Part shown: positions 5,058-25,088 of the stretch, piece by piece
How positions within the stretch are numbered: position 1 is the first letter of the stretch
Layout: the number at the start of each line of letters is the position of its first letter
From: Opitutus sp. ER46
Lineage (GTDB): Bacteria; Verrucomicrobiota; Verrucomicrobiia; Opitutales; Opitutaceae
Direction: 5' to 3'
DNA length: 64,000 nt
Assembly: GCF_003054705.1 (NCBI RefSeq)
Contig: NZ_QAYX01000024.1
Span: forward strand, 124,001 to 188,000
Made by a program: the position numbers and the translations under genes
Notes under the pieces: generated by a model
What the model was told of the DNA's origin: nothing
Seen by the model: only the letters and a program-made list of their open reading frames with translations
Database searches by the model: none

Positions 5058-7045
5058 GTCGCGCCAGCTAGCAGGGCGTGAGGAAGACCAAACGAACACA
5101 AAAAAGAGAACGTTAGGAATGAAACATGCCGAAGATACCCTGCGGGTGAACGAATCCCGCCCCGGAAGGCTGGCTGCCGCCGGGAAGCGAACATTGCGTA
5201 GCGCGACCGAGAGGAGCGCACGAAGCGTATGGAGCGAGGACTGAAGCCACGTGACTGACCTCCGAAAGTTCCGAAGCCGTGGTCTCCCTGTTCGTTCTAG
5301 GGGGGACGAGACCGAAGCACCCGCAGTAAGTCGTGACCGGAAAGGCACGCCGGCCAGGGGTGTGGAGGCTGGCCGGAGGCTAAGAAGGTGGCAGAGGTTC
5401 GAGCGGGTATCCTGTGAAGCTGGGAGAGCCGCCAAACCGCTCTGGCAACAGGGCGACTGGACCGCGAGGGACAACCGAAGCGGGCTGGGGAGGTTGGGCG
5501 GCAGTCTTAGCGGCCCCATAGTAGCGTTGAAAGCAGGCGAACCTTGGACCGGAGGGAGCCTGTGAGTAGCGAAGGGGAAAGCCGCCGGGCAGAGGAAAGT
5601 GCTGAGGGCGCAAACGCCGGGGAGCAACCGCCCCGAGACAGCGTTTCCCAGCGTCAGCAGCACATAGCGAAGATGGCGCGCAAGTATGTCGGCAGTCCGA
5701 TCACCACGCTGAATCATCATCTTGATCAGCTGTGGCTGTACGAGGCGTACCGGCGAGTGCGACGGGACGGTGCCCCCGGGATCGATGGGCAGACGGTGGC
5801 GGACTATGGCCGCGACCTGGACGCAAACCTGAAGGACCTATGGGAGCGGGTACATAGTGGCCGCTACCGGGCGCCTTTGGTGAAGCGGGTGCACATCCCC
5901 AAGAACGAAACGGAAACGCGTCCCATTGGGATACCGACCGTGGAGAACAGGGTGCTGGAACGAGCGGTGCAGATGCTGCTGGAGCCGATCTATGAAGTGG
6001 ACTTCCTGGATTGCTCCTACGGCTTCCGCCCCGGGCGCTCACCGCACGACGCGTTGGCCGCAGTGCGAGAGATCGTGATGCGGATGGACGGTGGTTGGGT
6101 GGTGGACGTGGATGTGAAGCAGTATTTCGACACGATCCCGCACCAGCAACTGCGAGACATCGTGAGCCGACGGATACGTGACGGAGTGATTGAACGGCTG
6201 ATTGCCAAGTGGCTGAAGGCCGGCGTCTGGGAAGACGGGCAGGTGAGCTACCCAGAGGCAGGAACACCGCAAGGCGGGGTGATCTCACCCTTGCTGAGCA
6301 ACATCTACCTGCACGAGGTGTTGGATCGCTGGTTCATGGAAACGATCAGGCCAAAGTTGCAGGGTAAGGCGGAGCTGATCCGCTTTGCCGACGACTTTAT
6401 CGTGATCTGCGAGCGCCAGGACGAAGCCCTTGCCCTGGTGGCAGAGCTGCGCACCCGGTTCACCGCTCATGGGCTGACCATCCATCCGGAGAAGACCCGC
6501 GTGGTGGACTTCCGGCATCCGTGGAAAAGCGGCCAGGTCCCGCAGACCTTCGACTTCCTGGGCTTCACCCACTACTGGGGGAAGACGCAGCGGGGCGGGT
6601 ATGCGGTGACGCGCCAGACCCGAGGCAAGAAGCTGCACGCGGTGCTGAGCCGAATCCGCGCCTGGTGCAAAGCGCATCGGCACGACCGGCTCAGCGACCA
6701 GCACCGTGAACTCAGCGCGCAAGTGCGCGGGCATTACCAATACTACGGTATCCGCGGAAACTACCGCATGCTCCAGCGCTTCCGCCACGAGGTCGAACGG
6801 GGCTGGGCGTACTGGCTGATGCGCCGCTCGCGGGAGCGGCGCGGTCCCGCGGCGATCTGGCGGCTGCTCCAAGGTCACTTGGCGCTGCCGTCCGCTCATA
6901 TCGTCCACGGCGCCACCCTCGAACCTGGATGCCTGTCACTCTAGCGTAGCGAACTCCTCTGCTTGAAGAACCGGATGCGTTAATTGCGCTCGTCCGGGTC
7001 TGTGGGGGCGTCGGCGGCCATACCGCCGGCGCTACCCGGAAGAAC
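5058..7045 (+). mobile_element. Group II intron with reverse transcriptase ORF
   Basis: A ribozyme domain I-like leader of about 500 bases precedes the maturase ORF. After it, 6970-7003 is a domain V-like hairpin (CCGGATGCGTTAATTGCGC, closing GTCCGG), and 7005-7036 a domain VI-like hairpin with an unpaired A in GCGCTACCC. Boundaries are inferred by comparison with the related repeat at 25.1 kb: joining 5057 to 7046 restores GAGAACGAG. In support, TTCGTTCT at 5291-5298, in a hairpin loop, can pair with AGAAC (5053-5057) plus GA (7046-7047), as expected for EBS1/delta. The 5' end would read GTCGCG rather than the usual GTGYG, so it could be off by some bases. Confidence 0.75.
5562..6944 (+). 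CDS. ltrA: Group II intron-encoded reverse transcriptase/maturase
   Basis: About 460 aa. Reverse-transcriptase blocks are in order: TRPIGIPTVENRVLERAVQ, FLDCSYGFRPGRSPHDAL, VVDVDVKQYFDTIPH, GTPQGGVISPLLSNIYLHEV, then the catalytic RFADDF and the later TFDFLGFTHY. A maturase (X)/GIIM-like C-terminus follows (VRGHYQYYGIRGNYRMLQRF). No HNH endonuclease domain is visible. The open frame starts at a TTG at 5544, but GTG at 5562 is preceded by GGAGGGAG, the clearest Shine-Dalgarno sequence noticed in the window. The protein would splice the intron RNA and reverse transcribe it during retrohoming. The ORF is complete and may be functional. Confidence 0.93.
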   Translation: MSSEGESRRAEESAEGANAGEQPPRDSVSQRQQHIAKMARKYVGSPITTLNHHLDQLWLYEAYRRVRRDGAPGIDGQTVADYGRDLDANLKDLWERVHSGRYRAPLVKRVHIPKNETETRPIGIPTVENRVLERAVQMLLEPIYEVDFLDCSYGFRPGRSPHDALAAVREIVMRMDGGWVVDVDVKQYFDTIPHQQLRDIVSRRIRDGVIERLIAKWLKAGVWEDGQVSYPEAGTPQGGVISPLLSNIYLHEVLDRWFMETIRPKLQGKAELIRFADDFIVICERQDEALALVAELRTRFTAHGLTIHPEKTRVVDFRHPWKSGQVPQTFDFLGFTHYWGKTQRGGYAVTRQTRGKKLHAVLSRIRAWCKAHRHDRLSDQHRELSAQVRGHYQYYGIRGNYRMLQRFRHEVERGWAYWLMRRSRERRGPAAIWRLLQGHLALPSAHIVHGATLEPGCLSL

Positions 7046-8233: not shown

Positions 8234-8399
8234 GGTTCCGGGCAGGCAAGAGCCGCCGGGGGCGGCTGTCGAGCTGAGTTTGGGATGGCCGGGGCGGGCC
8301 GTTTTGGGTTATTGACCAGAGGTCACGAGGTTCTGAACGTTTCCCCCTGTATCCGGATAGGCGTTTCGGCGCAGCCGGGTGCCCCACCAAGAACACACC

Positions 8400-9431
8400 A
8401 TGAACTCCTCACTCGTTTCCCGCGTGCTCCTGTGCGCCGCCGCGCTCGCGGCCGGCCGGCTGGCTGCTGATACCATCGATACCCGCAACGGCGCCCATCT
8501 GGTCGGCAAGATCGTCAAGATCGACGCCGGCGAGATCACGATCGACACCGACTTCGCCGGCAAGGTGAAGGTGAAGCAGGCCGAAGTCGCCAGCTTCTCC
8601 ACCGAGGCGCCGATCGCGGTCCGGCTGGCCAGCGGCACCCGCTTCGACGGTCAGGTGACCGGCGCGACCGGCGGGACGCTCCAGATCACCGGCCCGGACG
8701 GCACCGTGAACACCACAGTGGCCAAGGTGGCTGCCAGTTGGGAGGCGGGCGGCGTCGACCCGGCGGTCGAGCAGCGCCACTGGGAATACGAGGCGTCGGT
8801 CGACGTCTCCGGCAAGACGGGTAACAAGGAGCAGCTTGGCACCGCCGGCGAGGCGCGCGCCCAGATGAAGACCTCGCGCGACACGTTGCAGTTCTACACC
8901 GCGTACAACCGGCAGATGAGCGACGGCGAGAAATCGGCCGACCAGTTCAAGGCCGGCACCGACTACCAGAACAACTTCGCCGGCAAGACCTCGTGGTACG
9001 TGCGCGACGAGGGTGGCTTTGACCGCGTGAAGGATATCGAGGTGTACAACATCGCCGCGGCCGGTCTGGGCGTCGATTTTGTGAAGAAGGCCAAGCACAC
9101 GCTGACGGCTCGAGGCGGTGTGTCGTTCCGCTTTGAGAACTACAAGAACCCGCTGACCGAGGACGTGAAGAGCCTCGGCTTGGACATCGGGCTGCTGAAT
9201 GAAATGGAGTTCGAGAGCTCGAAGCTCGTGACGCGCATCTCATTCGTGCCGTCGTTCGACGACTTCGCGAATTACAAGCTCGTCCACGAAAGCTACTATC
9301 AGATTCCGCTCGCCAGTCCGGCCTGGAAGCTCCGCCTCGGCGTGAGCAACGACTACACCTCCAAGCCCGGCGTCGGCGTCGAGAAACTGGATACCGCCTA
9401 CTTCACCCGCCTCGTGCTGAACTGGTACTGA
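8400..9431 (+). CDS. DUF481 family outer-membrane-type protein
   Basis: 343 aa from ATG 8400 (an upstream in-frame ATG at 8379 adds only seven residues). A signal peptide (MNSSLVSRVLLCAAALAAGR) is followed by a small beta-rich domain with repeated GxxxxGKIVKIDAGEITIDTDF and ASGTRFDGQVTGATGGTLQI units, then an amphipathic beta-strand region ending LDTAYFTRLVLNWY with a terminal aromatic, typical of outer-membrane beta-barrels. The C-terminal part fits DUF481 (putative salt-induced outer-membrane protein). Substrate is unknown. A strong hairpin terminator follows. Confidence 0.8.
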   Translation: MNSSLVSRVLLCAAALAAGRLAADTIDTRNGAHLVGKIVKIDAGEITIDTDFAGKVKVKQAEVASFSTEAPIAVRLASGTRFDGQVTGATGGTLQITGPDGTVNTTVAKVAASWEAGGVDPAVEQRHWEYEASVDVSGKTGNKEQLGTAGEARAQMKTSRDTLQFYTAYNRQMSDGEKSADQFKAGTDYQNNFAGKTSWYVRDEGGFDRVKDIEVYNIAAAGLGVDFVKKAKHTLTARGGVSFRFENYKNPLTEDVKSLGLDIGLLNEMEFESSKLVTRISFVPSFDDFANYKLVHESYYQIPLASPAWKLRLGVSNDYTSKPGVGVEKLDTAYFTRLVLNWY

Positions 9432-9619: not shown

Positions 9620-12010
9620 GTGGGCCACCCCGCTTTGCGCCGCGTTACTCGAAACTTCCCGAGACTCCGCCGTCTCGCCGGCGTGCTGGCCTTCGCCGTG
9701 CTCTCCGGCCCGCTGGGCGCCGCTGGACCGGCTCCCTCCCGGGCGGAGCTGACCGCCCTGTTCGCGCCCGAACGGGTGTCGCAGGTGGCGCTCTCGCCCG
9801 ACGGAAAAACCCTGGTGTGCGTCCTGCGGGAGGGCCGGGCGCTGCGGCTGGTCACCCGCGACCTCGACCATCCCGCCGCCCGTGTGCCCCTGCGCGTCGA
9901 GGTCGAACCCCGGGGTTCGGCGTCCGGGCCGGGCGGCGGGCTCGGCCTGCCGTATCTGTGTTTCATGGACGCCACGACGCTCGTGTATGTCGTGCGCCTG
10001 CCGGCGAAGACCGAGGACGCGGTGCCGTCGGAGGAACTCCATGGGGTGGATCTCCGCACCGGCCAGGACCGGCGCCTGCTGGACCAGACGGTCTTCGAGC
10101 GCGACTACACGCCGCCGGTGCGGCGCCGCCATGTGAACCTCGACATCGAAACGGATGAGCCGGGGGAGATTGGGGAGGAGGGCGAGGACACCACCGCCGT
10201 CGCGCTGCCCGAAACCATCGATGTGCCCCGCGCGTTCCGGGTGCTGGGCCCCGTGCCGGGCGAACCCGGCTTCCTGGTCGTGGAGGCGCTGGGCAATGCG
10301 CTGGTGCCCGTGGAAACGTACCGCGTCGACCTCCGGACCGGCGTGCGGACCGCGGTCGCCGCCGAGGAGGATCCGGCCCGGATGCTGTACGATGGCACGG
10401 GACGTCCGCGCGTGCGGGAAACCGCCCGCGTGCAGGGGGTGGGTGCCGACAACATGGAGGACGAGCGCAGCCCGGTGCTGGCCCGGGCCTCCGGCAAGAT
10501 TGTGCCGCAGGTCTTTGAATATCGCACGGCTCGGGGCTGGCGTCCGCTCGACGCGCTCGTGGGCGCAGCGGCCGGGCTGCGTTTCAGCCACGCCGATGCG
10601 GAGTACTACGAACCGCGTTCACTGCCGCTCGCGTTGGGCGGCGATCCGCGGGTGCTCTATTACGCGTCCAACGTGGGCCGCGACACGTATGCGCTCTTCA
10701 GCCTGGACCTGGAGACCGGGGCGCGGACGTCGGTGTACGCCGCAGCGAAGGTCGATCTCGCCGGTCCGGGCGATGCGTTGAGCGAACGCCCCCTGGTGTT
10801 TGATCGCGCGCGGCGGCTCGTGGGCGTGCACGTGCCCGGCCGTCCCGGTACGACGCACTGGTTCGACGCCGGGCTGGCGCGGCTCCAGGAGGAGGCGGAG
10901 CGTGCGTTTCCGGGGCGCCGCGTGACGCTGCGGGAATGGAGCGACGCGCAGGATCGCGTGCTCGTTGAGGTGGGAGGGCCGGGCGATCCCGGACGCGTTT
11001 ACCTGTTGGAGACGACGCCGCGGCTGCGGTACACCGAGTTACTGCGGCGGGCGGGCAACCTCGACGCCCGGGGGCTGGCTTGGGCGTTCCCCGTGGCGCT
11101 CCCGGCGGCCACGGGCGAACCGCTGGCCGGCAGCCTGACCGTGCCGCGGCGCACCCGCCTGAAGCTGCCGCCGCTGGTGGTGCGTTTGCGCGATGCGCCG
11201 GGCACGCGGGCGGAGCGGGACGAGTTCGATCGCTGGGCGCAGGCGCTCGCGGCGTATGGTTTCATGGTGCTGGACCTCGATTACCGGGGCGCGACGGCTG
11301 GCGACCGGCTGGCGGCGGACGGGTTGCGCCGCGATCCGGATGGAGCGCCGGTGCGGGACGTGGTTGCGGCGCTGGACGCGCTGGCGGCGCAGCATCCGTA
11401 TGACCAGCGGCGCGTGGCCTTGTTGGGGGAAGGGTTTGGCGGCTACGTGGCGCTGCGGGCGTTGGCGCAGTTTCCGGCGCGGTTCCGCGGGGCGATCACA
11501 ATCGATGCGCCCACTGACCTGCGGGCGTGGCTGGCGGAGACCGGCCCCGGGTCGACCGCCGAACTGGAGTCGATGCGTTCGGTCTTCTTCACGACCAAGG
11601 ACGAGGGGCCGGACATCGACAAGATGCTCAATGAAGCTCCGAAGGCGCGGCGGGGTCGGCGTGGCTGGAACCGGCCGGTCCTGCCGGAGCCGATCGCGTG
11701 GCGCCGGGCCTATTTTGGCAACGCGTCGCTGGGCCAGGCTTCGGTGCTGACGCAGGCGGCGGCGTTGCGCGCGCCCGTGCTGATCCTGCAGGACGAAGAC
11801 CGGGCTGATTTTTCGCCGGCGCACGGCCGGAAGCTGCGCGACGCGCTGGAGCGCGCCGGGCAGGAGGTGGAGTACGTGCGATTGCCGCCGACGTACGCGC
11901 AGCGCGATCCGGAGACGTTGGCCCGCGTCGCGCGCCGGATGGGTGAGTTCCTGAACGACCACCTGTTCGACTACCGCGTCGATGTGGGGAAGGAGCGGGA
12001 GGTGAAATGA
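9620..12010 (+). CDS. Module 1: secreted S9 prolyl-oligopeptidase-like protein lacking the catalytic triad
   Basis: About 796 aa from the GTG at 9620. The frame is open back to 9488, but that part overlaps a terminator. The chosen N-terminus has a signal peptide (RRLAGVLAFAVLSGPLGAA). A beta-propeller-like region with the S9 signature (RVSQVALSPDGKTLVCVLRE) is followed by an alpha/beta-hydrolase domain. The nucleophile elbow reads GEGFGG (Gly605) where active S9 enzymes have GxSxGG. The Asp position aligns to QDEDRADF without a suitable Asp, and the His segment reads LPPTYAQRD. It is therefore predicted to be a non-catalytic binding or scaffold protein in the periplasm. It overlaps the next gene by 4 bases (ATGA), indicating translational coupling. 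Module copies 2 and 3 share the same change. Confidence 0.85.
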   Translation: MGHPALRRVTRNFPRLRRLAGVLAFAVLSGPLGAAGPAPSRAELTALFAPERVSQVALSPDGKTLVCVLREGRALRLVTRDLDHPAARVPLRVEVEPRGSASGPGGGLGLPYLCFMDATTLVYVVRLPAKTEDAVPSEELHGVDLRTGQDRRLLDQTVFERDYTPPVRRRHVNLDIETDEPGEIGEEGEDTTAVALPETIDVPRAFRVLGPVPGEPGFLVVEALGNALVPVETYRVDLRTGVRTAVAAEEDPARMLYDGTGRPRVRETARVQGVGADNMEDERSPVLARASGKIVPQVFEYRTARGWRPLDALVGAAAGLRFSHADAEYYEPRSLPLALGGDPRVLYYASNVGRDTYALFSLDLETGARTSVYAAAKVDLAGPGDALSERPLVFDRARRLVGVHVPGRPGTTHWFDAGLARLQEEAERAFPGRRVTLREWSDAQDRVLVEVGGPGDPGRVYLLETTPRLRYTELLRRAGNLDARGLAWAFPVALPAATGEPLAGSLTVPRRTRLKLPPLVVRLRDAPGTRAERDEFDRWAQALAAYGFMVLDLDYRGATAGDRLAADGLRRDPDGAPVRDVVAALDALAAQHPYDQRRVALLGEGFGGYVALRALAQFPARFRGAITIDAPTDLRAWLAETGPGSTAELESMRSVFFTTKDEGPDIDKMLNEAPKARRGRRGWNRPVLPEPIAWRRAYFGNASLGQASVLTQAAALRAPVLILQDEDRADFSPAHGRKLRDALERAGQEVEYVRLPPTYAQRDPETLARVARRMGEFLNDHLFDYRVDVGKEREVK

Positions 12011-13746
12011 AGCGCACGTCGTGGGCGAAACTCGGGACCGTGCTCCGGGCGCTTGGCTGGCTCGCGTTGCTGGCGTCGGCGCCATCGGGGACGGTGGCGG
12101 CACCGGCGGAGGCGCCGCTCGAAATGCCCCCGATGATCGTGTCGGAAGGCACGACGCGGAAGCCGTGGCGTTACGCGGCGGCGCCCGGGATCGAGATCCT
12201 CGGCCGGTGCGACGACTCCGACCTGCGCGATCTCATCCGGCGGAATCACGCACTCACGCACCTCATGCGGGTCATCCTGCCCGACGAACTCCAGTTTCAC
12301 ACCAGCGTTCCCCGGATGGTCGTGGTGGTGGAGGCGTCGTCGGCGCCGACGCTCGCGCGCGACTTTCTGGAACGGTTTGGGGAGGTCGCCGAGGGCGGCG
12401 GCGCGCGGCGACCGGGCGATGGGGCCGCGGCGCGGGCGGAGGGGAAGGCAGGAACGCAGGAGCCGGTGGCCGTTCCGCGCGACGTCCGCGTGTTCCCGAA
12501 CCTGATGCTGCAGGACCTGGATGCGTTCATGATGTTCGCGATGGTGGAGCCGGGGGCCTTCAACGCGGCGGACTATCGGTTTACGGAAGAGCACCTGCGG
12601 GTGATGCTGACCAACCGCACCCCGGCGCTGCCGGTGTGGTTTGTTGAAGGCTGGCTGCGCATGTACCGGGCCTCGCGCTTCGGCGACGACGAGATCGTGC
12701 TGGCGCCGCTCGCGTGGCTCTCCGCCAGTGAAGTCGAAAACCTGCAGGCCGATCCCGACCTGCCGCGGCGTGTGATGCCGCTGCCGGCCTTCTTCGCGCT
12801 GCGTGCCGAGCCGACCGACGCCGCCGATGCGGCGGCTTGGCGTGGCCAAGCGGAGCTGCTGGTGCGCTGGATGCTTGCGACGCCGGAGCGGCGCGCCGCG
12901 ATGGGACGCTTCGTGAGCGGGGCGGCGGCCGAGGGTGAATCTGAGGCCCTCGTGCGGACCTGCTTCGGCGTCGACTACGCCACGCTGCGTGACGAGCTCA
13001 GCGACTCGCTGCTTTCACAGGTCGTCGAGTTTCGCCGCATCCCGACGGAGCGGCCGCCGCGGCTGCGCGGGATGGTGAGCCACATCGCGACGCCGGCGGA
13101 GATCGGCCGGTTGAAAGGCGAGTGGGAGCGGCTCGAGACGAACTACGTGCGGCTCCGGCATCCGGCGTACGCGTCGAAGTATCTGGAGCTGGCGCGCGAG
13201 ACGATTGCGAAGGCGCGCGAGTCGGCACCGGGCGACCCCGGGCTTTTGGCGGTGGCGGGTTTGCTTGCCTGTGACCAGGGATTGCCGGAAGAGGCGCGAC
13301 CGCTCCTGGAGGCTGCGGCCGCGCGCCAGCTTTGCCGGCCGCGCGTGTACGCGGAGCTGGCCGGGCTACGGCTCGACGAAATGGGCAAGGGCGAGGCCGG
13401 GGAGGCGCGGCGGCTCAGCGTGGCGCAGGCGGAGATTGTGGTGGAGACCCTGGCGCTGGCGCAGAAGCAGCAGCCTCCGCTCGCGCTGACCTATGGCACG
13501 CTCGCGGCGGCGTGGGCGCGCAGCGACATGCCGCTGACCGTCGCTGACCTCGCGGTGTTGGCCGATGGCCTGCGCCGTTTCCCGCGCAATCTGCAGTTGT
13601 TGTACTTTGGGGCCATCCTGGAGGCGCGGCACCAATCGATCGCCCAGGGCCTGGCTCTGGCCGAGCGGGGCCTCGCCACCGCCACCACGCCGGCCGCCCA
13701 GCAGCGTTTCCGCGACCTGATCGCCGCGCTGAAGCGCAGCCCATAG
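12007..13746 (+). CDS. Module 1: secreted helical-repeat partner protein of unknown function
   Basis: 579 aa, coupled by an ATGA overlap to the upstream S9-like gene. A signal peptide (VLRALGWLALLASAPSGTVA) is followed by a conserved start of the mature chain, MPPMIVSE, then PWRY and GIEILGRCDDSDL. Around residues 200-215 is FTEEHLR, then LPVWFVEGW, resembling the distal part of gluzincin/peptidase-MA sites, but the first His and the Glu of HExxH are missing. The C-terminal half is helical and TPR-like ([25 protein letters not shown]). It is paralogous to the genes at 16310 and 21685. The last 29 codons and the 3' flank are almost identical to those of the copy at 16310. The family was not recognised; a role as partner of the pseudo-peptidase is inferred from coupling. 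Confidence 0.85.
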   Translation: MKRTSWAKLGTVLRALGWLALLASAPSGTVAAPAEAPLEMPPMIVSEGTTRKPWRYAAAPGIEILGRCDDSDLRDLIRRNHALTHLMRVILPDELQFHTSVPRMVVVVEASSAPTLARDFLERFGEVAEGGGARRPGDGAAARAEGKAGTQEPVAVPRDVRVFPNLMLQDLDAFMMFAMVEPGAFNAADYRFTEEHLRVMLTNRTPALPVWFVEGWLRMYRASRFGDDEIVLAPLAWLSASEVENLQADPDLPRRVMPLPAFFALRAEPTDAADAAAWRGQAELLVRWMLATPERRAAMGRFVSGAAAEGESEALVRTCFGVDYATLRDELSDSLLSQVVEFRRIPTERPPRLRGMVSHIATPAEIGRLKGEWERLETNYVRLRHPAYASKYLELARETIAKARESAPGDPGLLAVAGLLACDQGLPEEARPLLEAAAARQLCRPRVYAELAGLRLDEMGKGEAGEARRLSVAQAEIVVETLALAQKQQPPLALTYGTLAAAWARSDMPLTVADLAVLADGLRRFPRNLQLLYFGAILEARHQSIAQGLALAERGLATATTPAAQQRFRDLIAALKRSP

Positions 13747-13791
13747 CGCGCGTGCTTTCTGCCCCAAGACCCCGCAACGGCGGGGCCCGGC
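13658..13791 (+). repeat. 134-bp near-identical 3'-end block, copy A
   Basis: Aligns without gaps to 17946-18079 with five mismatches by eye (about 96 percent). It covers the last 29 codons of the module 1 partner gene, its stop and a small hairpin. The rest of the two genes is far more diverged, suggesting gene conversion or recombination at the module boundary. Confidence 0.9.
13770..13785 (+). terminator. Short hairpin after module 1
   Basis: 6-bp stem CCCCGC/GCGGGG with an AACG loop, 24 bases past the stop of the module 1 partner gene. An identical hairpin occurs at 18058-18073 after module 2. Confidence 0.6.
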
Positions 13792-13809
13792 CGGATGCCC
13801 TGGAGCAAA

Positions 13810-13874
13810 ATGTGACGCCGTGACGGCCTGACCCCGTTTGCCTGAGACGGGGTCAGGCCGTCACCGCGTCACAT
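13810..13874. repeat. REP-like palindrome, copy 2
   Basis: Arms 13810-13837 and 13847-13874 (28 bases, one mismatch) with a 9-base loop TTGCCTGAG. It separates module 1 from module 2. The remaining gap, 13875-14099, shows no gene; its first bases resemble those after the palindrome at 19356. Confidence 0.9.
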
Positions 13875-14099
13875 TCCGTTCATAATTGGGGGCAGCGCGT
13901 CAGTATCCCGTCTCGGGTCCAGATAACTTGATTGGTCTTCGACCTGAGCCAAGGGGGCATCCGGCGTGGGAGGGGTGAGAAAACCGACCGGACCGCCGGC
14001 GGGCATTCGTGTGTCGACCCCGAAGGAGCGCCGGTTCAGCCTACGCGGGCTCGTTACCCAGACCCGTTTCCGACTCTCTGTCCGCCTGTTTCGTTGCCC

Positions 14100-16313
14100 G
14101 TGTCGTCCTGCGTCAGATCGATTCTCGCCTGCGTCGCCCCGGCGCTTCTCCTCGTGCTCTCGCCCACCGCCGCGCGTGCGTCGGATGTGACGCGTGGGCA
14201 GCTGACAGCGCTCCTGAGCCCCGATCGGATCATTGCCGCCACGCTCGCTCCCGATGGTCGCCATGTCGCCTTTGTGGCCCAGGAGCCGGACCGGACGTCG
14301 CTGCTAATCCGTGATCTGGACGCCGCCGCGGCGGAGACCGTCACGGTGTGGAGCGGAGCTGGGACGGCGCGGACCTTTTCGTTTCGAGCGACGGCGTCGT
14401 TCTCGGATCGGGTGAACTTTCTTGGGTGGGCGGATGCCCAGACCTTCGTGTACGGGCTGCACGAGGGGGCAGACGGGCATGGTCCCGAGCTGGAACTGCA
14501 CGTGGTGGACGCCAGCGGTCGCAATCGCCGCAGGCTGATCGACTCCGACTCACTGGCGGTGGTTCACGGCTCCGGCAGCGAGGCGAAGGCGAGGCCTTTC
14601 ATTGTCCTTGGTTTTGCTGCCGGCGCCGCGCCTGAGGTTCTGGTGCAGGTCGGCTCCGGCATTGCGGGCGTCGAGGTCCTGGCGATCGATCCGCAGACGG
14701 GACGGCGCCGGACGATCGCCGATGAACGGCGGAGAGGACGCTACCTGTGCGACGCGACAGGCGAGCCACGGATTTTCTGCCCATTTGAGGAGGACGCGGG
14801 CAAGGACCCCCAGTTCGAATACCGCCCCGCCCACAGCAAGCGCTGGCAAGCGCTCGAGCAACGCGTCCCTGAACTACGCTTCCGGGCCAGCGACTCCGCG
14901 TATTTCGAACCACACGCCTTCCCGCTGGGCTTTGGTGGCGAGAGCGAGGGGCTGTACTTTGCGACAAACGTGGGACGGGACACGTACGCCGTGCGCCTGC
15001 TGAGGCTGGAACGTGAGGCGCACACGGCGTGTGTTGCCGAGGACGCCGCGTACGACCTTGCCAAGCCGGATGACGCCTTCGGTGAGGGGCCGCTGGTGTT
15101 CGATCGTGCGCGCCGGCTGGCGGGGGTCCGGCGACCGGCCGCTGGGGCCGGCACACGCTGGCTCAACCCTGAACTGCAACGGCTGCAGGACGAGTTGGAC
15201 GCCCGGTTCGTCGGTGCATCCGTGACGATCATCGAGTGGACGGAGGCGTACGATCGCGTGCTGGTTCACGTCGCGGAAGACGGTACCGCTGGACGGCTGC
15301 ATCTCGCACGCCGCGGCGCCACGCTCGAGGTCGCGGAGATTCTCCGTCCGTTGGACCCGACGTCGGCGGAGGCGCGGCCGACGGTCCTGCCGCTGGTGGT
15401 TACAGCGCCCGCCGGGCACACGCTCTCCGGGTGCATCACGTTGGCGCACGAACCCCGGCGCGATCCGGCTCCGTTGGTTGTTGTCCTGCATGACCTGCTC
15501 CGACCGGCACTGCAGACCGCGGACCCATCGGTTCCGTGGCGACCCATCAGTCGTCGGCATCGGCTGGCCCAGTCGCTCGCCGCGTTTGGTTTTCATGTGC
15601 TCGAAGTCGAGTGCCGCGGCACGTCGGGGCGGGGGGCGGCATTTCGGAACACGCTCAAAGATGCTCCGGTTCGCGCGCCGCTCGACGATGTACAGGCGAT
15701 GCTGGCGGCCGCCGCTCGGGTACAGGCGTGCGACGTCCGGCGCGTTTCGATCGTCGGGGAAGGCTATGGTGGTTTGCTCGCGCTGCGTGCGCTGGGGTTG
15801 TTTCCGAACCAGTTCCGCGCCGCGGTGAGCATCCAGGCACCGATGGATCTCGCCGCCTGGATTCAGGCGCCAGTCACCGCGCCCCTGTTGCCAATCGATG
15901 AGAAGCCGCTGCCCTTCGAAGGAGGCGAGGGACGGCCGATGTTGATTGCGCCAGCGGTTCGCGGCCCGCACTGGCGGCGGTCGGCCTGGCAGATGCGTTT
16001 CGGAGCATTTTTCGGCGGGAATGCCGCCTGGTTGCGCGAGGCCTCGGTCACGACTGACGTCGGCGCGCTCGGAGCCCCGGTGCTCGTGCTCGAAGATCCA
16101 GCGCCGCTCCTGCAGCCGGGCCCGGGCGGACGCGAACTGTACCACCGCGTGAAGCGTGCGGGCAAAGCGGCGGAGTACCGCGCGCTGCACGGCCCGCTGC
16201 TGGCAGGCGCGGTGGAGGAGCAACTCGCCGCGGTGACGCATCTAGCCGGGTTCCTGAACACCCACCTCTACGATTACGCGGTGCAAGTTGGGGCCGAGAA
16301 GGAGGTGCCGTGA
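14100..16313 (+). CDS. Module 2: secreted S9 prolyl-oligopeptidase-like protein lacking the catalytic triad
   Basis: About 737 aa from the GTG at 14100. A TTG at 13932 would add 56 unlikely residues. GTG 14100 gives a good signal peptide (CVRSILACVAPALLLVLSPT) and aligns with the GTG start of module 3. The propeller-like N-terminal region begins DRIIAATLAPDGRHVAFVAQ. The hydrolase domain has the elbow GEGYGG with Gly555 in place of Ser; the Asp region reads LEDPAPLLQPGPGG; the final segment (ALHGPLLAG) contains a His of uncertain alignment. At least the Ser and Asp are lost, so peptidase activity is not expected. It overlaps the partner gene by GTGA. Confidence 0.85.
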   Translation: MSSCVRSILACVAPALLLVLSPTAARASDVTRGQLTALLSPDRIIAATLAPDGRHVAFVAQEPDRTSLLIRDLDAAAAETVTVWSGAGTARTFSFRATASFSDRVNFLGWADAQTFVYGLHEGADGHGPELELHVVDASGRNRRRLIDSDSLAVVHGSGSEAKARPFIVLGFAAGAAPEVLVQVGSGIAGVEVLAIDPQTGRRRTIADERRRGRYLCDATGEPRIFCPFEEDAGKDPQFEYRPAHSKRWQALEQRVPELRFRASDSAYFEPHAFPLGFGGESEGLYFATNVGRDTYAVRLLRLEREAHTACVAEDAAYDLAKPDDAFGEGPLVFDRARRLAGVRRPAAGAGTRWLNPELQRLQDELDARFVGASVTIIEWTEAYDRVLVHVAEDGTAGRLHLARRGATLEVAEILRPLDPTSAEARPTVLPLVVTAPAGHTLSGCITLAHEPRRDPAPLVVVLHDLLRPALQTADPSVPWRPISRRHRLAQSLAAFGFHVLEVECRGTSGRGAAFRNTLKDAPVRAPLDDVQAMLAAAARVQACDVRRVSIVGEGYGGLLALRALGLFPNQFRAAVSIQAPMDLAAWIQAPVTAPLLPIDEKPLPFEGGEGRPMLIAPAVRGPHWRRSAWQMRFGAFFGGNAAWLREASVTTDVGALGAPVLVLEDPAPLLQPGPGGRELYHRVKRAGKAAEYRALHGPLLAGAVEEQLAAVTHLAGFLNTHLYDYAVQVGAEKEVP

Positions 16314-18034
16314 GCACGCCGTGGGCACGCGGATGGAGATCGCTGCTGTTTCTTGCGTTCGGCGCGACGCTCGTCGCGGGCGCGGGTGGTGCGCCGGCCG
16401 TTGACGCGGACAGGGTGGTGGCCTTGCCGCCCTTGATCGTGAGCGACGTTTCGGGGCGACAGCCCTGGCGTTATCTGGCCGCGCCCGGCGTCGAGATCCT
16501 TGGGCGCTGCGACGACGCGATCATGTGCGAGCTCGTGGAGCGGGAGCATCGGCAGAACGAGCGCATGCGCGTGCTGCTGCCGGAGGAGCTGCGTTTCCGC
16601 TCCGATGAACCGAAGACCGTCATCCTGGTGGATGCGCAGCTGGCGCCGAAGCTCGCACGCGGGTTTGTCGAACAACTTGGCGACGTGGCGGCTGGGCTGG
16701 CGGAGACGAGGGACACGGCGGTCGCGCGGCGGCCCCCGGCCGCGGCGGGTCTCGAGGCATTGCTGGCGAGCCTCAACGCGCGGCTCCTGCCGAACCTGGT
16801 GCTCGACGCGGAGGATCATTTCGTGACGTACGCTCTCGTGGAACGGGGACCCGCGGCGGGGCGTTTCTTCTTCACGCGGGAGCACTGGCGGCAGGCGATG
16901 ACGCGGCGGACGCCAGCGTTGCCGCCATGGTTTGTAGAAGGATGGATGCAGCTGCTGGATGGGCTGAGCGGAGACGATGACGCGTTCGAACTGCGGCCGA
17001 TGACGTGGCTGTCCCTCGAGGATACGGCTCGCTTGCAGCGGGATCCGGATGCGCCGCGAGGATTGCTCCCGCTCGCGGAGTTTTTCACGGCAAAGCCGAA
17101 GACGCTGACCGAGGCGGGGCGCCGGTTGTGGCTCGACCAGGCGGAGTTGCTGCTGCGGTGGGGGCTCGACGAGCCGAAGCGCCGCGAGGCACTGTGGCGG
17201 TTCGTCGCAGCGGCGGCGCGCAACGGCGTGTCGGACGCGCTGTGCCAGGAGAGCTTCGGGATGGGTTATGCGCGGTTGCAGGAGCGGCTCGGCGAGTTCG
17301 TCGAGGCGGCGACGAGCCGGGCCTGCGTGTTGCGTTTCCCCACCCTGGCGCGGGTGCCCAAATCAGAGGTGCGGGACGCAACGCCGGCAGAGATCAATCG
17401 CCTGAAGGGCGAGTGGGAAAGATTGGCGCTGGGCTATGTGCGGGCGCGCTATCCCGGGTATGACAAGCCGTATGAAGCGGCGGTGCGCGAGACCGTGGGA
17501 CGTGGGCTCGACCGCGCGCCGCAGGATGCGGCGGTACTGGGGCTCGCGGGCTTGTTGGAGATCGACCTTGGTCGGACCGAGGCGGCGCGGGCCCTGCTGA
17601 CACGAGCGGTGGACGCTGGGGCGACCCGCGCTCTCGTGCGAGTTCGCCTCGCGGCTCTGCGACTCGCAGAGGCGCGGCGGGAAGCTGGTCGCGACGGCGA
17701 GGTGGCGACGGCAGAGGTGGCCGAGTTGGAACACGTGCTTGCGCCCACGTGGCAACGGCAGCCGGCGCTCGCGAGTGGCTATGCGGTGCTCGCTGAAGCG
17801 TGGTATCGTGGCGGAGGTCCACTGACACCGGTGGCGCGCGAGCGATTGCAGGAAGGGCTAGCCTGTTTTCCGGAGCATCTCTCGTTGCTCTTTTTTGCCG
17901 CGCGCCTCGAGGCGCGGAGCGGCGATGCGCATGAGGCCGAGGAGTTGGCCGAGCGGGGCCTCGCCACCGCCACCACCCCCGCCGCCCAGCAGCGTTTCCG
18001 CGACCTGATCGCCGCGCTGAAGCGCAGTCCATAG
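16310..18034 (+). CDS. Module 2: secreted helical-repeat partner protein of unknown function
   Basis: 574 aa starting with a GTG that overlaps the upstream stop (GTGA). A signal peptide (SLLFLAFGATLVAGAGGAPA) precedes the family start LPPLIVSD, PWRY and GVEILGRCDDAIM. The gluzincin-like relic reads FTREHWR, then LPPWFVEGW, again without an HExxH. The helical C-terminus ends in the same 29 residues (LAERGLATATTPAAQQRFRD onward) as the module 1 partner. A hairpin and the IS-split palindrome follow directly. Function not recognised. Confidence 0.85.
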   Translation: MSTPWARGWRSLLFLAFGATLVAGAGGAPAVDADRVVALPPLIVSDVSGRQPWRYLAAPGVEILGRCDDAIMCELVEREHRQNERMRVLLPEELRFRSDEPKTVILVDAQLAPKLARGFVEQLGDVAAGLAETRDTAVARRPPAAAGLEALLASLNARLLPNLVLDAEDHFVTYALVERGPAAGRFFFTREHWRQAMTRRTPALPPWFVEGWMQLLDGLSGDDDAFELRPMTWLSLEDTARLQRDPDAPRGLLPLAEFFTAKPKTLTEAGRRLWLDQAELLLRWGLDEPKRREALWRFVAAAARNGVSDALCQESFGMGYARLQERLGEFVEAATSRACVLRFPTLARVPKSEVRDATPAEINRLKGEWERLALGYVRARYPGYDKPYEAAVRETVGRGLDRAPQDAAVLGLAGLLEIDLGRTEAARALLTRAVDAGATRALVRVRLAALRLAEARREAGRDGEVATAEVAELEHVLAPTWQRQPALASGYAVLAEAWYRGGGPLTPVARERLQEGLACFPEHLSLLFFAARLEARSGDAHEAEELAERGLATATTPAAQQRFRDLIAALKRSP

Positions 18035-18079
18035 CGCGGGTGCTTTCTGCCGCAAGACCCCGCAACGGCGGGGCCCGGC
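17946..18079 (+). repeat. 134-bp near-identical 3'-end block, copy B
   Basis: Counterpart of 13658-13791 with five mismatches. It includes the end of the module 2 partner gene and the hairpin at 18058-18073. Both copies are followed 18 bases later by a REP-like palindrome. Confidence 0.9.
18058..18073 (+). terminator. Short hairpin after module 2
   Basis: Same CCCCGC/GCGGGG stem and AACG loop as the hairpin after module 1, 24 bases past the stop. Confidence 0.6.
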
Positions 18080-18135
18080 TGGAGATTTTCGTGAGAAATG
18101 TGACGCCGTGACGCCCTTGTATCTTGGACGGTGAA

Positions 18136-19307
<1,172 letters not shown>

Positions 19308-19519
19308 AAGACCGTTGCTGACCCCGTCTCAGGCAAACGGGGTGACCGCGTCACATGCGTTCAATGGAGACCGGGGGCGGCGTCAGTTTGTCGGGTTCGC
19401 GGGGGGCAGAGAGGCGGCTTGGGCTGTGGCATGGCCGGTTGGCTGTCGTAAAAAGTTGTTGTGAATGGTGTTCGTTTGGCGCGACGGTGGCGTCCTGCGC
19501 TTAGATAACCTCCGCGTCC

Positions 19520-21688
19520 GTGTCCTACCCCGGCCGATACTTCACTTTTCTGGCGCTGATGGCGGCGTTGGTTGCGCCCGTTGAACGGGCGTCAGCCGCG
19601 CGCCCGCGCGATCCGTCGCGGGACGAACTTGCCGAACTGTTCCAGACCTCGCGGTTGTCGCAGGTCCTGCTCTCTCCGGACGGGCAGCGGTACGCCTACG
19701 TCGTGACCGAGCGCGGGGCGACGACCTTGCTGACGCGGAAGCTCAACGACCCGGAGGCGCGCGAGGCCTTGTTTGTCGAACTGAGGTCCAGCAATCCGCG
19801 CGAGTCGCCCAATCTGGGATACTTCGGTTGGGCCGATGCCGAGACACTGGTGTATCTGATCACTTTCCCGGACCGGCCGCCGGGTCGGGACCAGGAACTC
19901 CGGGCCGTGCGCGCGGACGGCCGGGATAACCGGCTCCTGCTGCAACCGGCCGACATGCCGGAGTACGTCGTTTTCAGCGACGAGACGGATGGGCCCGCCC
20001 TCAATATCCGCCGAAGCATGCGTGTGCTGGGTTTTGCACCCGATGTGCCGGACACGGTGTTGGTGGAGATCGCCGGCCATGTCGGCGCGCGGGGACGATA
20101 TGACGTCGCGCGCGTCAACTGGCGCACCGGCGCGCGCACCCGCCAACCCGGCGACGACCGCGAAGGCCGCCTGCTGTTCGATGCCTCAGGCGTCGCCCGC
20201 GTGTACGAGTCGCCGCGCGTGACGCCGTCGATATTAACGAGCATTCGCGGCGCAAAGCCGGACCTGCCGTGGCTGTCATCCCAGCAGTCGGTTCACGTGC
20301 GCGGTCCCGGGCAGAGCCGCTGGAAACCCCTGGCGCGGCTGGGGGAGGCGGCCGCCCTGCATTTCGATCACGGCCCGATGGACGAGTTCAAGCCGCGCTC
20401 GGTGCCGCTCGCGATCGGCGCGGATCCGCGACTGCTCTATTTTGCGTCCAACGTCGGCCGCGACACCACCGGCCTCTACGCGCTCGACCTAGACACCGGC
20501 AAGCGCACCGACTTTGCGGTCGAGTCGGCGGAGTACGATATCATGGACGTGCAGGAGGTCTTTAACCCGCGCGCGCTCGTGTTCGACCGCCGGCGTGTCC
20601 TGGTCGGGGTAAGGTTGCCCGGGGTGCCGGCAACGACGCGGTGGTTCGATCCCGTGCTGGAGCAACGGCAACGCGAGGCGACGGCCCGTTTTCCGGAACG
20701 CGAGGTGCAGATCCTGGGCTGGAGCGAGGCGCGTGACGTGGTGCTGCTGGCGGTGCTGCCCGCGGGAGGTTTTGTCCGGTACATCGTGATGCGGGCCGGC
20801 CAGCCGCCGCAGTTCACCGAGATTCTGCGTCGTCTCGCGTTCAGCGGCGACCTGCCCCGGCCGCGCACCGTCCCGGTTGACTTCACCACGCCGGCGGGCG
20901 TGCGGCTGACCGGCGCGGTGACGCTGCCGCGTATGCCCCGGAGCAACCCTCCGGCCCTGATCGTGCGGTGTCGCGACCTGCCCGGCTCCGCGATCCTGCC
21001 GATGCTCTCCCAGCGCGAATCGCAGGTGCTCGCCGCCTATGGTTTCATGGTGCTCGACCTGAATCACCGCGGATTTTCCGGCCTTGGCACGCGGCACCGC
21101 GACGCGATCCGGGGCGCGTGGGAACGAGTGCCGCTCGAGGATATTCGGGCCGCGCTGGGCTGGCTGGGCGAACACCACCCGTACGATCGTCGCCGGGTGG
21201 GGCTTTTCGGCGAAGGCTTCGGCGGATACCTGGCGCTCCGCGCTCTGCAACAGGAGCCGCAGCTGTTCCGCTGCGCCGTGGTGTTTCACGGCCCCGCCGA
21301 ACTCCACGGCTGGGTGGCTGGCATCGCCGCAAACTCGATGTCCCTGCCGGAGGCGAATCCGCTGATCGCCCGCCGCCGCGCCTTCTTCAATTTCTCGCCG
21401 GCCGCGCCTGAGCCTCCGTCGGTCCTGAGCACCGCTGCGGATCTGCGCCGACCGGTCATGCTCGTCGCCGATCCGACACGGCTCGATCCCGTGGCCGACC
21501 AGGCCCGGACCCTGCGCGACAAACTCAAGGCGGCGGGAACCGAGGTTGAGTACCTGGAGTTGTCCGGAACGCTGGCGCGCCAGGACGCAACGAACGCCGC
21601 GCGCGTGTTTGAGCGCATCGGCCGATTCTACGCCGGGAGAATGTACGACTATCGCGTCGAGGTTGGCGCAGAGCGGGAGGTCGATTGA
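19520..21688 (+). CDS. Module 3: secreted S9 prolyl-oligopeptidase-like protein lacking the catalytic triad
   Basis: 722 aa from GTG 19520. A signal peptide (FTFLALMAALVAPVERASA) precedes the propeller-like region (RLSQVLLSPDGQRYAYVVTE) and the hydrolase domain (YGFMVLDLNHRGFSG). The elbow is GEGFGG with Gly566 replacing the nucleophile. The Asp region reads VADPTRLDPVADQ, offset from the usual position, and the His segment is LSGTLARQD. It is predicted to be catalytically dead like its two paralogues and may bind peptides or a partner in the periplasm. It overlaps the partner gene by TTGA. The gap before it (19357-19519) shows no gene. Confidence 0.85.
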   Translation: MSYPGRYFTFLALMAALVAPVERASAARPRDPSRDELAELFQTSRLSQVLLSPDGQRYAYVVTERGATTLLTRKLNDPEAREALFVELRSSNPRESPNLGYFGWADAETLVYLITFPDRPPGRDQELRAVRADGRDNRLLLQPADMPEYVVFSDETDGPALNIRRSMRVLGFAPDVPDTVLVEIAGHVGARGRYDVARVNWRTGARTRQPGDDREGRLLFDASGVARVYESPRVTPSILTSIRGAKPDLPWLSSQQSVHVRGPGQSRWKPLARLGEAAALHFDHGPMDEFKPRSVPLAIGADPRLLYFASNVGRDTTGLYALDLDTGKRTDFAVESAEYDIMDVQEVFNPRALVFDRRRVLVGVRLPGVPATTRWFDPVLEQRQREATARFPEREVQILGWSEARDVVLLAVLPAGGFVRYIVMRAGQPPQFTEILRRLAFSGDLPRPRTVPVDFTTPAGVRLTGAVTLPRMPRSNPPALIVRCRDLPGSAILPMLSQRESQVLAAYGFMVLDLNHRGFSGLGTRHRDAIRGAWERVPLEDIRAALGWLGEHHPYDRRRVGLFGEGFGGYLALRALQQEPQLFRCAVVFHGPAELHGWVAGIAANSMSLPEANPLIARRRAFFNFSPAAPEPPSVLSTAADLRRPVMLVADPTRLDPVADQARTLRDKLKAAGTEVEYLELSGTLARQDATNAARVFERIGRFYAGRMYDYRVEVGAEREVD

Positions 21689-23460
21689 ACGCGCGCCTGA
21701 ACCCACGGCTGCTCCTGCTCGCGCTCACCCTGGCACTTCTTGAGCGCTCCCCAGCAGGCGGCGCCGAGGAGCCGGCGACGGTGCAACTGCCGCCGATGAT
21801 CGTGTCGGAGAACACCTCCGACCGCCCCTGGCGCTACGTCGGCACGCCGCAGATGGAGGTTCTCGGGCGCTGTGATGACGGTGTGCTCAAGGACATGGTG
21901 ACCCGAACCTACCGGCTCAACGAGCTGCTGGGCATGCTCCTGCCGCCGGCGTTGCAGCACCAAACCACGCACCCACGTCAGGTGATCCTCGTTGACGCGA
22001 AGTCCGTCCCGGGGCTCTCCCGCGAGTTCCTTGCCCAGTTTGGCGGCCTCACGTACGCCCGGCCGCCGGCCACGTCGAACCCGTCGCCGGCCCCAGGCCG
22101 GCCCGGGCAACCCGGAGTCGTCGTCGACCCGTCGGTGCCAGGCACCGCGTTGCCGCCGCTCCCGGGCGAGGCGCGAATCCAGACGATCCCCAGTCCGGTG
22201 CTGTACGACCTGGACCGCGTTGCGACCTTCGCGATCGCCGAGCGCAGCTCGATCGATCTCACGGCAATGTGCTTCACGCCCGAATACGTCCGGCTGCTCC
22301 TGGTCGGGCGCACGCCGGAGCTGCCGGCGTGGTACGTTGCGGCTTGGTTGCGGCTGTATCCGGCGTGCGACTTTCGCGACAAGGCAATCCACGTGGCTCC
22401 GCTGATCTGGCTGAACGAGGCGGAGACGAGGGTACTGCGTGACGATCCGGATGCGCCGCGGCGGGTGATGCCGCTGGTGGACCTCCTGGGCGGCTGGCCG
22501 TCGGCCGCGGACAAGGCGGCGGTCGAGCACTGGACCGTGCAGGCGGAGCTCCTCCTGCGCTGGGCGTTGCTCAACCCGGAGCGGCGCGCGGCGCTGGCGC
22601 GCTATATCGGAACGGCGGCGCGGGCGGGGGACTCGGAGGCCCTTTTCCGCGAGTGCTTCGGCTTTGGTTACGCCGATGCGCGGGACTATCTCAGCGATTA
22701 CCTGCCCACGGCCGTGCGGAAAGGGGTCGTCTTCGAGTTGGCGAAACCCGCCAAACCGCCGCGCCTGCGTCCGCGGGACGCCACCCCGGCGGAGATCGGT
22801 CGGATCAAGGGTGACTGGGAGCGGCTGGAAACGGCGTTCGTGCGGAAACGGTATCCGGAGTTTGTCGGGCCGTACCTGATGCTCGCGCGCCAGACGATCA
22901 CGCGGGCGCGCGAGGTGGCCCCGCAGGATCCTGGGCTGCTGGCGGTGGCGGGGCTGCTCGAGTGCGACGAAGGTGATCATGCCGCGGCGCGTCCTTTGCT
23001 GGAGGCGGCGGTGGCGGGCGCACGCTGTTCGCCCCGGGTGTACGTGGAGCTCGCCGGGCTGCGGCTCGAGGACTTCACCCGGTCCGACGACAACGAGTTC
23101 CAGCCGCTGGGCCCGGGACAGGCCAGTTTTGTGCTCGAGACGCTGGCCCCCGCGCTGGAACAACAGCCGGCGCTGCCCGCGACCTACGCGCTGATGGCAG
23201 CGGTCTGGGCGCGCAGCGCGACGGGCGTCGGGCCGAAGGAGATCGCCCTCCTCGACGAGGCGCTCCTGCGGTTCCCGCGGCATATCCCGCTGCTGTATTT
23301 CGGTGCCATGGTCATGGCGCAGCACCGCTCGATTGACGCGGCCCTGACGCTGGCGCGAACGGGCCGCGCGCTGCCGCAGCCGGCCGCAATGCAGAAGCGC
23401 TTCGACGAGCTGACGGCGGTGTTGACGAAAGCCCAGGCTGATCGGGCTCCGCGCAAGTAG
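21685..23460 (+). CDS. Module 3: secreted helical-repeat partner protein of unknown function
   Basis: 591 aa starting at a TTG overlapping the upstream stop (TTGA). A signal peptide ([20 protein letters not shown]) is followed by [12 protein letters not shown] and [13 protein letters not shown]. The protease-like relic is the most eroded of the three (FTPEYVRLL, then LPAWYVAAW, with EG replaced by AA). An extra proline-rich insert (about residues 130-160) is present. The helical repeat part ([20 protein letters not shown]) resembles the other copies, but the C-terminal tail does not share their 29-residue ending. Function not recognised. Confidence 0.85.
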
Positions 23461-23540
23461 CGCGCCGGGGCGGCGCGGTTTACCGTCACGTGCCGAGGCG
23501 GTTGTTGCCGGGAAATTCTGTTTTCTCTTATTTCATCACG

Positions 23541-25088
<1,548 letters not shown>

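Follow-up and report, generated by a model that had tools for sequence, protein, structure and literature searches.

A pseudo-S9 protein and a predicted pseudo-metallopeptidase with tetratricopeptide repeats, encoded as overlapping gene pairs in Opitutus sp. ER46

Three consecutive gene pairs were analysed in a stretch of 64,000 nucleotides from Opitutus sp. ER46 (assembly GCF_003054705.1, contig NZ_QAYX01000024.1, positions 124,001 to 188,000 of the forward strand), in the following referred to as the window. Each pair encodes an S9-type protein, here denoted S, and a second protein, P, whose gene starts within the stop codon region of the first. Judged from sequence comparison and structure prediction, S is a pseudo-S9 protein, i.e. 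it keeps the whole S9 fold but has lost the catalytic residues, and P is a pseudo-metallopeptidase of the DUF1570/Peptidase-MA type joined to tetratricopeptide repeats (TPR). An earlier note on the window had described the pairs and their overlaps; that both products are pseudopeptidases, S lacking the catalytic triad and P the HExxH motif, was overlooked there. Comparison with related genomes supports a long-kept 1:1 genetic relation of S and P, and the pairing is old.

Organization of the three gene pairs

The genome (G000) comprises 5.7 Mb in 25 contigs. All six open reading frames (ORFs) of the array were verified as open, and they form three S–P pairs in the same order on the same strand. 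The genes and their overlaps are:

9620..12010, + strand, S1, predicted exported pseudo-S9 protein of 796 amino acids, beta-propeller and alpha/beta-hydrolase fold (PF00326, AlphaFold, Foldseek)
12007..13746, + strand, P1, predicted exported pseudo-metallopeptidase-TPR protein of 579 amino acids (AlphaFold, TPR by Foldseek, homology to HExxH proteins)
14100..16313, + strand, S2, predicted exported pseudo-S9 protein of 737 amino acids
16310..18034, + strand, P2, predicted exported pseudo-metallopeptidase-TPR protein of 574 amino acids
19520..21688, + strand, S3, predicted exported pseudo-S9 protein of 722 amino acids
21685..23460, + strand, P3, predicted exported pseudo-metallopeptidase-TPR protein of 591 amino acids
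12007..12010, + strand, overlap of S1 stop and P1 start, ATGA
16310..16313, + strand, overlap of S2 stop and P2 start, GTGA
21685..21688, + strand, overlap of S3 stop and P3 start, TTGA

The coordinates and overlaps reported earlier were thereby confirmed. S and P of one pair amount to 1311–1375 amino acids combined. The strong divergence of the copies was reproduced for the proteins as a whole (BLASTP identities of 32–38% for S and 37–46% for P) but does not extend to the last 89 nt of P1 and P2, which are 96.6% identical (see below). In agreement with the signal peptides proposed in the earlier note, an early hydrophobic, Sec-signal-like stretch is found at all six N-termini; on this simple hydropathy criterion, S and P look like exported proteins. 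A promoter scan found none, compared with 0.9 expected, and a terminator scan found 8, compared with 9.4 expected.

The S protein

The three S proteins match PF00326 with E-values of 1e-14 (S1), 3e-14 (S2) and 2e-17 (S3). The AlphaFold model of S1, computed from an input alignment of 46 rows, has a predicted local distance difference test score (pLDDT) of 82.8, and Foldseek aligns it with S9 structures along the whole chain (8wt1, E 1.2e-27, 808 aligned columns), revealing the propeller and alpha/beta-hydrolase fold of active S9 peptidases. Their Ser-Asp-His triad and GxSxGG motif are missing, and S1–S3 lack all three residues. The S9-like identity assigned in the earlier note thus holds for family and fold but not for the catalytic site, and S as an active peptidase was rejected because the triad is absent. 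When solved S9 chains are aligned to S1–S3, the catalytic Ser falls on Gly in the nucleophile elbow:

11426..11443, + strand, elbow of S1, GEGFGG, Gly for Ser
15756..15773, + strand, elbow of S2, GEGYGG, Gly for Ser
21209..21226, + strand, elbow of S3, GEGFGG, Gly for Ser

The replacement extends to the relatives. The Ser column of alignment A4 (46 rows) contains G in 42 rows, D in two, and W and K in one each, with Ser in 0/46. Likewise, wherever the elbow of a P-adjoining S protein could be read, Ser is gone (28/28, of which 26 belong to A4 and two to genome G360); an S fragment adjoining P in L115 was scored as a junction, its elbow being unreadable. At E 1e-40 or better, the S profile gave 49 matches in 115 genomes, 47 of them Ser-less. 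Among the Ser-less S rows (n = 50), Asp is retained in seven and His in seven, with four Ser-bearing S9 proteins as yardstick; S1–S3 retain neither. The same genome served as a control: it has 19 other PF00326 matches, and Ser is retained in each of the seven ordinary S9-type loci fetched from these (L152–L157, L159). For this S group, the Pfam label of an S9 peptidase would mislead on activity.

On a quick tree of 54 S rows (L213–L218 left out), 48 rows of this S type are separated from four active S9 rows with a support of 100. Two Ser-less rows, L209i and L211, group among the active S9 rows, and this position points to a separate loss of Ser in both. In genome G065 a Ser-less S9 gene and a Ser-bearing one are same-strand neighbours (L209, 458–2632 and 2592–4499), forming a separate active/inactive pair. 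The window's genome carries a fourth, solitary Ser-less S gene with the elbow GRGHGG (L132, 6113–8698, contig 11 of G000); no P match was found in its 16-kb region.

The P protein

No Pfam match above cut-off was obtained for P1–P3, and Pfam searches of 63 P rows returned TPR-type and stray matches, with a peptidase match in none. The AlphaFold model of P1 (pLDDT 85.7) is matched by TPR proteins in Foldseek and weakly by BepA (E 7e-4, TM-score about 0.2). The peptidase ancestry becomes apparent through distant homologues. The profile built from the P rows picks up distant same-family proteins that contain HExxH (L179, L202, L203 and two in L205), and DUF1570 scores above the Pfam cut-off in L202 and L203. 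In a search of 370 ORFs, L203 aligned to the P profile in register (independent domain E-value 2e-10), with its HEYVH placed against a non-conserved xDYVx in P and its LPLWLNEG against LPxWFVxG. Matched profile against profile, P and the Peptidase_MA_2 proteins show a weak direct similarity (E 5e-4, probability 32%); the case for homology to DUF1570/Peptidase_MA over the peptidase domain is therefore built on these intermediate homologues. The HExxH zinc motif itself occurs in 0/63 rows of the P alignment (A3). An HE..H string is present in L178, away from the motif place. The equivalent stretches of the window's proteins are:

12583..12651, + strand, P1 stretch equivalent to HExxH...LPxWxxEG, HExxH absent
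16874..16942, + strand, P2 stretch equivalent to HExxH...LPxWxxEG, HExxH absent
22276..22344, + strand, P3 stretch equivalent to HExxH...LPxWxxEG, HExxH and the later Glu absent

The conserved start of P, LPP[ML]IVS...PWRY...GRCDD, had been listed in the earlier note among the features that the pairs preserve. The block is present, yet the form LPP..V / W.Y / E.LSRC is found in nearly all A3 P rows, those without S included. It was rejected as a mark of pairing because unpaired P carry it too, and as a TonB-box-like motif shared with other window proteins because a pattern search of the PWRY-less window ORFs gave none.

Within the paired clade (see below), L104 (2926–5820) and L039 are P proteins with an extra C-terminal stretch of ~300–400 residues, which in L104 is without a Pfam match. 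Distant paralogues of P, with LPKF.V at the start, occur in L151 (4596–8398) and L150 (5054–7003); two such paralogues lie side by side in genome G008, and one lies in the window's genome by a transporter-like gene (named by eye).

Pairing and coupling across relatives

P and S were searched for in 115 related genomes, and the regions around the matches were fetched. Outside the window's own genome at least 61 P matches reached 212 bits or more, and the regions of 61 were fetched; on the 3-kb contig of one P match (L219, G014:C529) no S match was found. Same-strand S>P neighbours number 26, including the window's three, and an in-frame 4-base overlap is present in 23 of the 26, the exceptions being L099, L101 and L120. 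The direct succession of S and P with an overlapping start, on which the earlier note had put weight, is also seen beyond the window. All co-directional junctions of the same regions were compared with one script and rough gene calls. By this measure the overlap is found at 20/23 S>P junctions, counting the three in the window, versus 22/192 unrelated junctions, and at 1/2 P>S, 4/16 MocA>P, 1/10 other>P, 2/20 other>S, 2/10 S>other and 2/27 P>other junctions. Reversed order, P then S, is seen in L077, again with a 4-base overlap (GTGA), and genome G360 holds two S–P pairs in tandem, both overlapping. Among the ORFs of the fetched regions, none matches both profiles as an S–P fusion would.

The P tree comprises 73 rows, with L039, L104, L129 and five later P genes (L178–L182) added beyond A3; no S match was found in the regions of L178–L182. 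Six rows were left unlabelled, namely L039, L091 and L106, where the upstream side is a contig end, and the distant paralogues L150 and L151 (two). For the remaining rows, 29 paired and 38 unpaired, two changes suffice, compared with a mean of 22 after shuffling, and two changes were likewise obtained from a first P tree of 65 rows that counted L091 and L106 as unpaired. A branch with a support of 95 has all 29 paired rows on one side, together with the unpaired L104 and one unassignable row, and 37 of the 38 unpaired rows on the other. Pairing is thus inherited rather than casual.

Over 28 pairs, S distances and P distances are correlated (0.94), and none of 5000 permutations was as high (best value 0.48). 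Swapping paralogues lowers the correlation clearly in four genomes and slightly in two others; in the window's genome it has no such effect. Cognate matching of S and P within the window by this correlation was dropped, as it does not discriminate. The ratio of nonsynonymous to synonymous substitution (dN/dS) in relatives is 0.14–0.37 for nine S comparisons and 0.15–0.38 for nine P comparisons. These ratios place S and P under purifying selection in the relatives compared: the proteins are dead but maintained.

Of 288 genomes sampled from the whole phylum, 16 contain P, and each of the 16 belongs to the window's own family. In the related set, a P match also occurs in G075, a member of another family of the same order (E 1.5e-14). 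S at E 1e-35 or better was found in ten of the 288 genomes, nine of them in the own family; in three of the ten (G092, G128 and G220) the protein at the site of the match carries Ser. The S–P pair is present in 21 sampled species, the reversed pair being counted in.

Proposed role and alternative explanations

What the sequences document is that catalytic residues were lost, that S and P are coupled by the conserved 4-base overlap and descend jointly, that purifying selection acts on them in relatives and that the genes duplicate as pairs. We consider the chances about even that the two dead peptidases of each pair form an exported 1:1 complex whose function is binding instead of cleavage, a reading that is plausible because of the precedents DPP10 and CspC:CspA (see below). 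Coupled translation of S and P would feed a 1:1 complex in the periplasm, where the S9-fold pocket and the propeller of S may accommodate a ligand, peptide-like or otherwise, and P may dock another protein through its TPR domain. Such a complex would sense, carry or scaffold rather than cut, and the tandem copies would differ in ligand or client. The joint, stoichiometric work proposed in the earlier note is supported at the level of the genes, where coupling, distance correlation and the two tree changes indicate the 1:1 relation. A more specific version is put forward tentatively: a lineage-specific two-subunit receptor of the Opitutaceae periplasm, in which a pseudo-S9 and a pseudo-metallopeptidase-TPR protein, dead peptidases unrelated to each other, are translationally locked at 1:1, and the copies of which radiated by tandem duplication towards different ligands or clients.

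The genetic association might also reflect a shared operon whose products have separate jobs, the overlap saving space and the matching trees following from shared vertical descent. Four-base overlaps do occur at 22/192 other and 4/16 MocA>P junctions; however, the frequency at S>P junctions (23/26), the recurrence of the overlap in the reversed L077 and the duplication of pairs as units, in the window's three as well as in G360, render this explanation unlikely. That S and P are still enzymes with unusual catalysis, e.g. with a non-canonical nucleophile in S or a non-zinc site in P, seems very improbable. The elbow glycines are nearly invariant (46/46 at position 603 and 42/46 at position 605), which argues that the pocket is kept, and Asp or His equivalents persist in a few S rows. 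Yet Gly, which prevails in the Ser column of S, is incapable as a nucleophile, and neither the Asp and His columns of S nor the HExxH columns of P show a conserved replacement residue.

A role as accessory module of TonB-dependent outer-membrane uptake, handling or gating imported oligopeptides, is judged rather unlikely. Receptor-type genes, for two of which (L101, L119) Pfam gave confirmation, are present in 8/25 paired and 4/18 S-only regions versus 1/38 P-only regions, and the difference between S-containing (12/43) and P-only regions corresponds to a Fisher p of 0.002. These counts are qualified by the receptor profile, which was built from two gene clusters of these same regions, by the inclusion of gene fragments and by the separate counting of orthologous regions. 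Moreover, 17/25 paired regions, including that of the window (5001–30000), have no receptor-type gene. The association is a weak hint at envelope uptake.

Several observations weigh against the proposed binding complex itself. The other gene is missing from 38/67 assignable P rows and from 20/46 A4 S rows, so that the earlier note's question whether P is generally unlinked from S receives a split answer: many P are unlinked, but nearly all of these lie across the support-95 branch from the paired rows. L104 belongs to the paired clade, adjoins no S and carries the extra C-terminal stretch, which might stand in for S. The S-profile matches of G035 (GGSFGG) and G092 (GASYGG) retain Ser; P is not beside these genes in the stretches read, and the edge of the S profile evidently extends to active S9 proteins. 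Part of the distance correlation stems from shared species history, and the cognate assignment in the window is not the best permutation (0.9395 versus 0.9419). The dN/dS values come from relatives only, the window copies being too diverged for the test. Lastly, the counts of receptor genes near S take in orthologous regions, and the window's array has no such gene in its surroundings.

Flanking genes, conversion tract and mobile elements

The surroundings of the array contain the following features:

8379..9431, + strand, DUF481 gene (Pfam), upstream of the array
23490..25088, + strand, arabinofuranosidase gene (Pfam), downstream of the array
13658..13829, + strand, 172-bp tract at the P1 3' end and in the intergenic region, 90.7% match to 17946–18117
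17946..18117, + strand, 172-bp tract at the P2 3' end and in the intergenic region, 90.7% match to 13658–13829
18243–19307, IS110-type transposase gene (Pfam), between pairs 2 and 3

Relatives of the DUF481 gene were seen in 14 other fetched regions, in most cases preceding an unpaired P, and arabinofuranosidase-like genes follow unpaired P in three regions (L075, L084 and L097). Sixteen unpaired P come after a Gfo/Idh/MocA-type gene and four directly after a PmoA-like gene, both names being read by eye from translations. The array of the window occupies the interval between DUF481 and arabinofuranosidase where relatives have PmoA-like and MocA-type genes and unpaired P.

The near-identical 89 nt at the ends of P1 and P2 are part of the 172-bp tract, which extends beyond the stop codons; the two proteins are otherwise about 44% identical. 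Local conversion is the probable origin of the tract. The IS110-type gene is flanked by palindrome halves (left at 18097, right at 19320–19356), an intact copy of which lies at 13809–13875; the element seems to have inserted into a repetitive extragenic palindrome (REP)-like sequence. A further inverted pair of the palindrome's 16-base word, with two mismatches each, is located at 2408–2474. A reverse-transcriptase-like ORF of the group II intron type at 5544–6944 was recognised by eye from its translation.

Comparison with known systems

Dead S9 proteins are known from DPP6 and DPP10. According to passages of PMC4350108 and PMC4873792, DPP10 is an S9 protein with Gly for Ser in a GKGYGG elbow that serves Kv4 channels. 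DPP6 and DPP10 are inactive S9B proteins and Kv4 auxiliary subunits that combine the S9 propeller with the hydrolase fold, Ser being replaced by Gly (DPP10) or Asp (DPP6; residues from PMC4350108). S shows the same type of replacement with the fold kept, and its likeness extends to the elbow, GKGYGG in DPP10 compared with GEGYGG in S2. Partner binding replaces catalysis in DPP6/DPP10, and by analogy the same may apply to S. In contrast, DPP6/DPP10 are type II membrane proteins, and DPP10 keeps His and Asp (PMC4350108), whereas the S proteins of the window lack Ser, Asp and His, have a signal-like N-terminus and are coupled to P. Presumably, Ser was lost in bacterial S independently of DPP6/DPP10.

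A precedent for a pair is CspC:CspA of Clostridioides difficile, described in PMC12880746 as a pseudoprotease heterodimer in signal transduction. Both cases involve two soluble dead proteases, in S–P encoded side by side, and S would pair with P in the same way. CspC is subtilisin-like (PMC6199464) and acts in spore germination. S–P shares no such fold: S1 has the S9 fold, P1 matches TPR proteins and BepA, and the pair of S9 and metallopeptidase-TPR folds belongs to Opitutaceae.

P resembles DUF1570/Peptidase_MA_2 metallopeptidase-TPR proteins in domain order, the LPxWxxEG helix and TPR, and differs by the loss of HExxH in 63/63 A3 rows. BepA of E. coli is a periplasmic M48 protein. It is the only metallopeptidase-TPR protein recognised among the 50 Foldseek matches listed for P1, and the similarity, at the low TM-score given above, lies mostly in the TPR part.

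In the open-access literature searched, with listed papers judged by title, no report of such an S–P pair or of dead S9 or DUF1570 proteins in Opitutaceae/Verrucomicrobia was found, and the accessible portion of a review of pseudometallopeptidases (PMC11266112) mentions neither DUF1570 nor tetratricopeptide. Dead S9 proteins and pseudoprotease pairs as such have been described before; the coupling of a pseudo-S9 protein to a pseudo-metallopeptidase-TPR protein is new within the reach of these searches. S and P represent two distinct peptidase folds that have both become inactive and evolve as a unit, with paralogues at hand for testing specificity, which provides a bacterial system for asking how enzyme folds turn into binding proteins.

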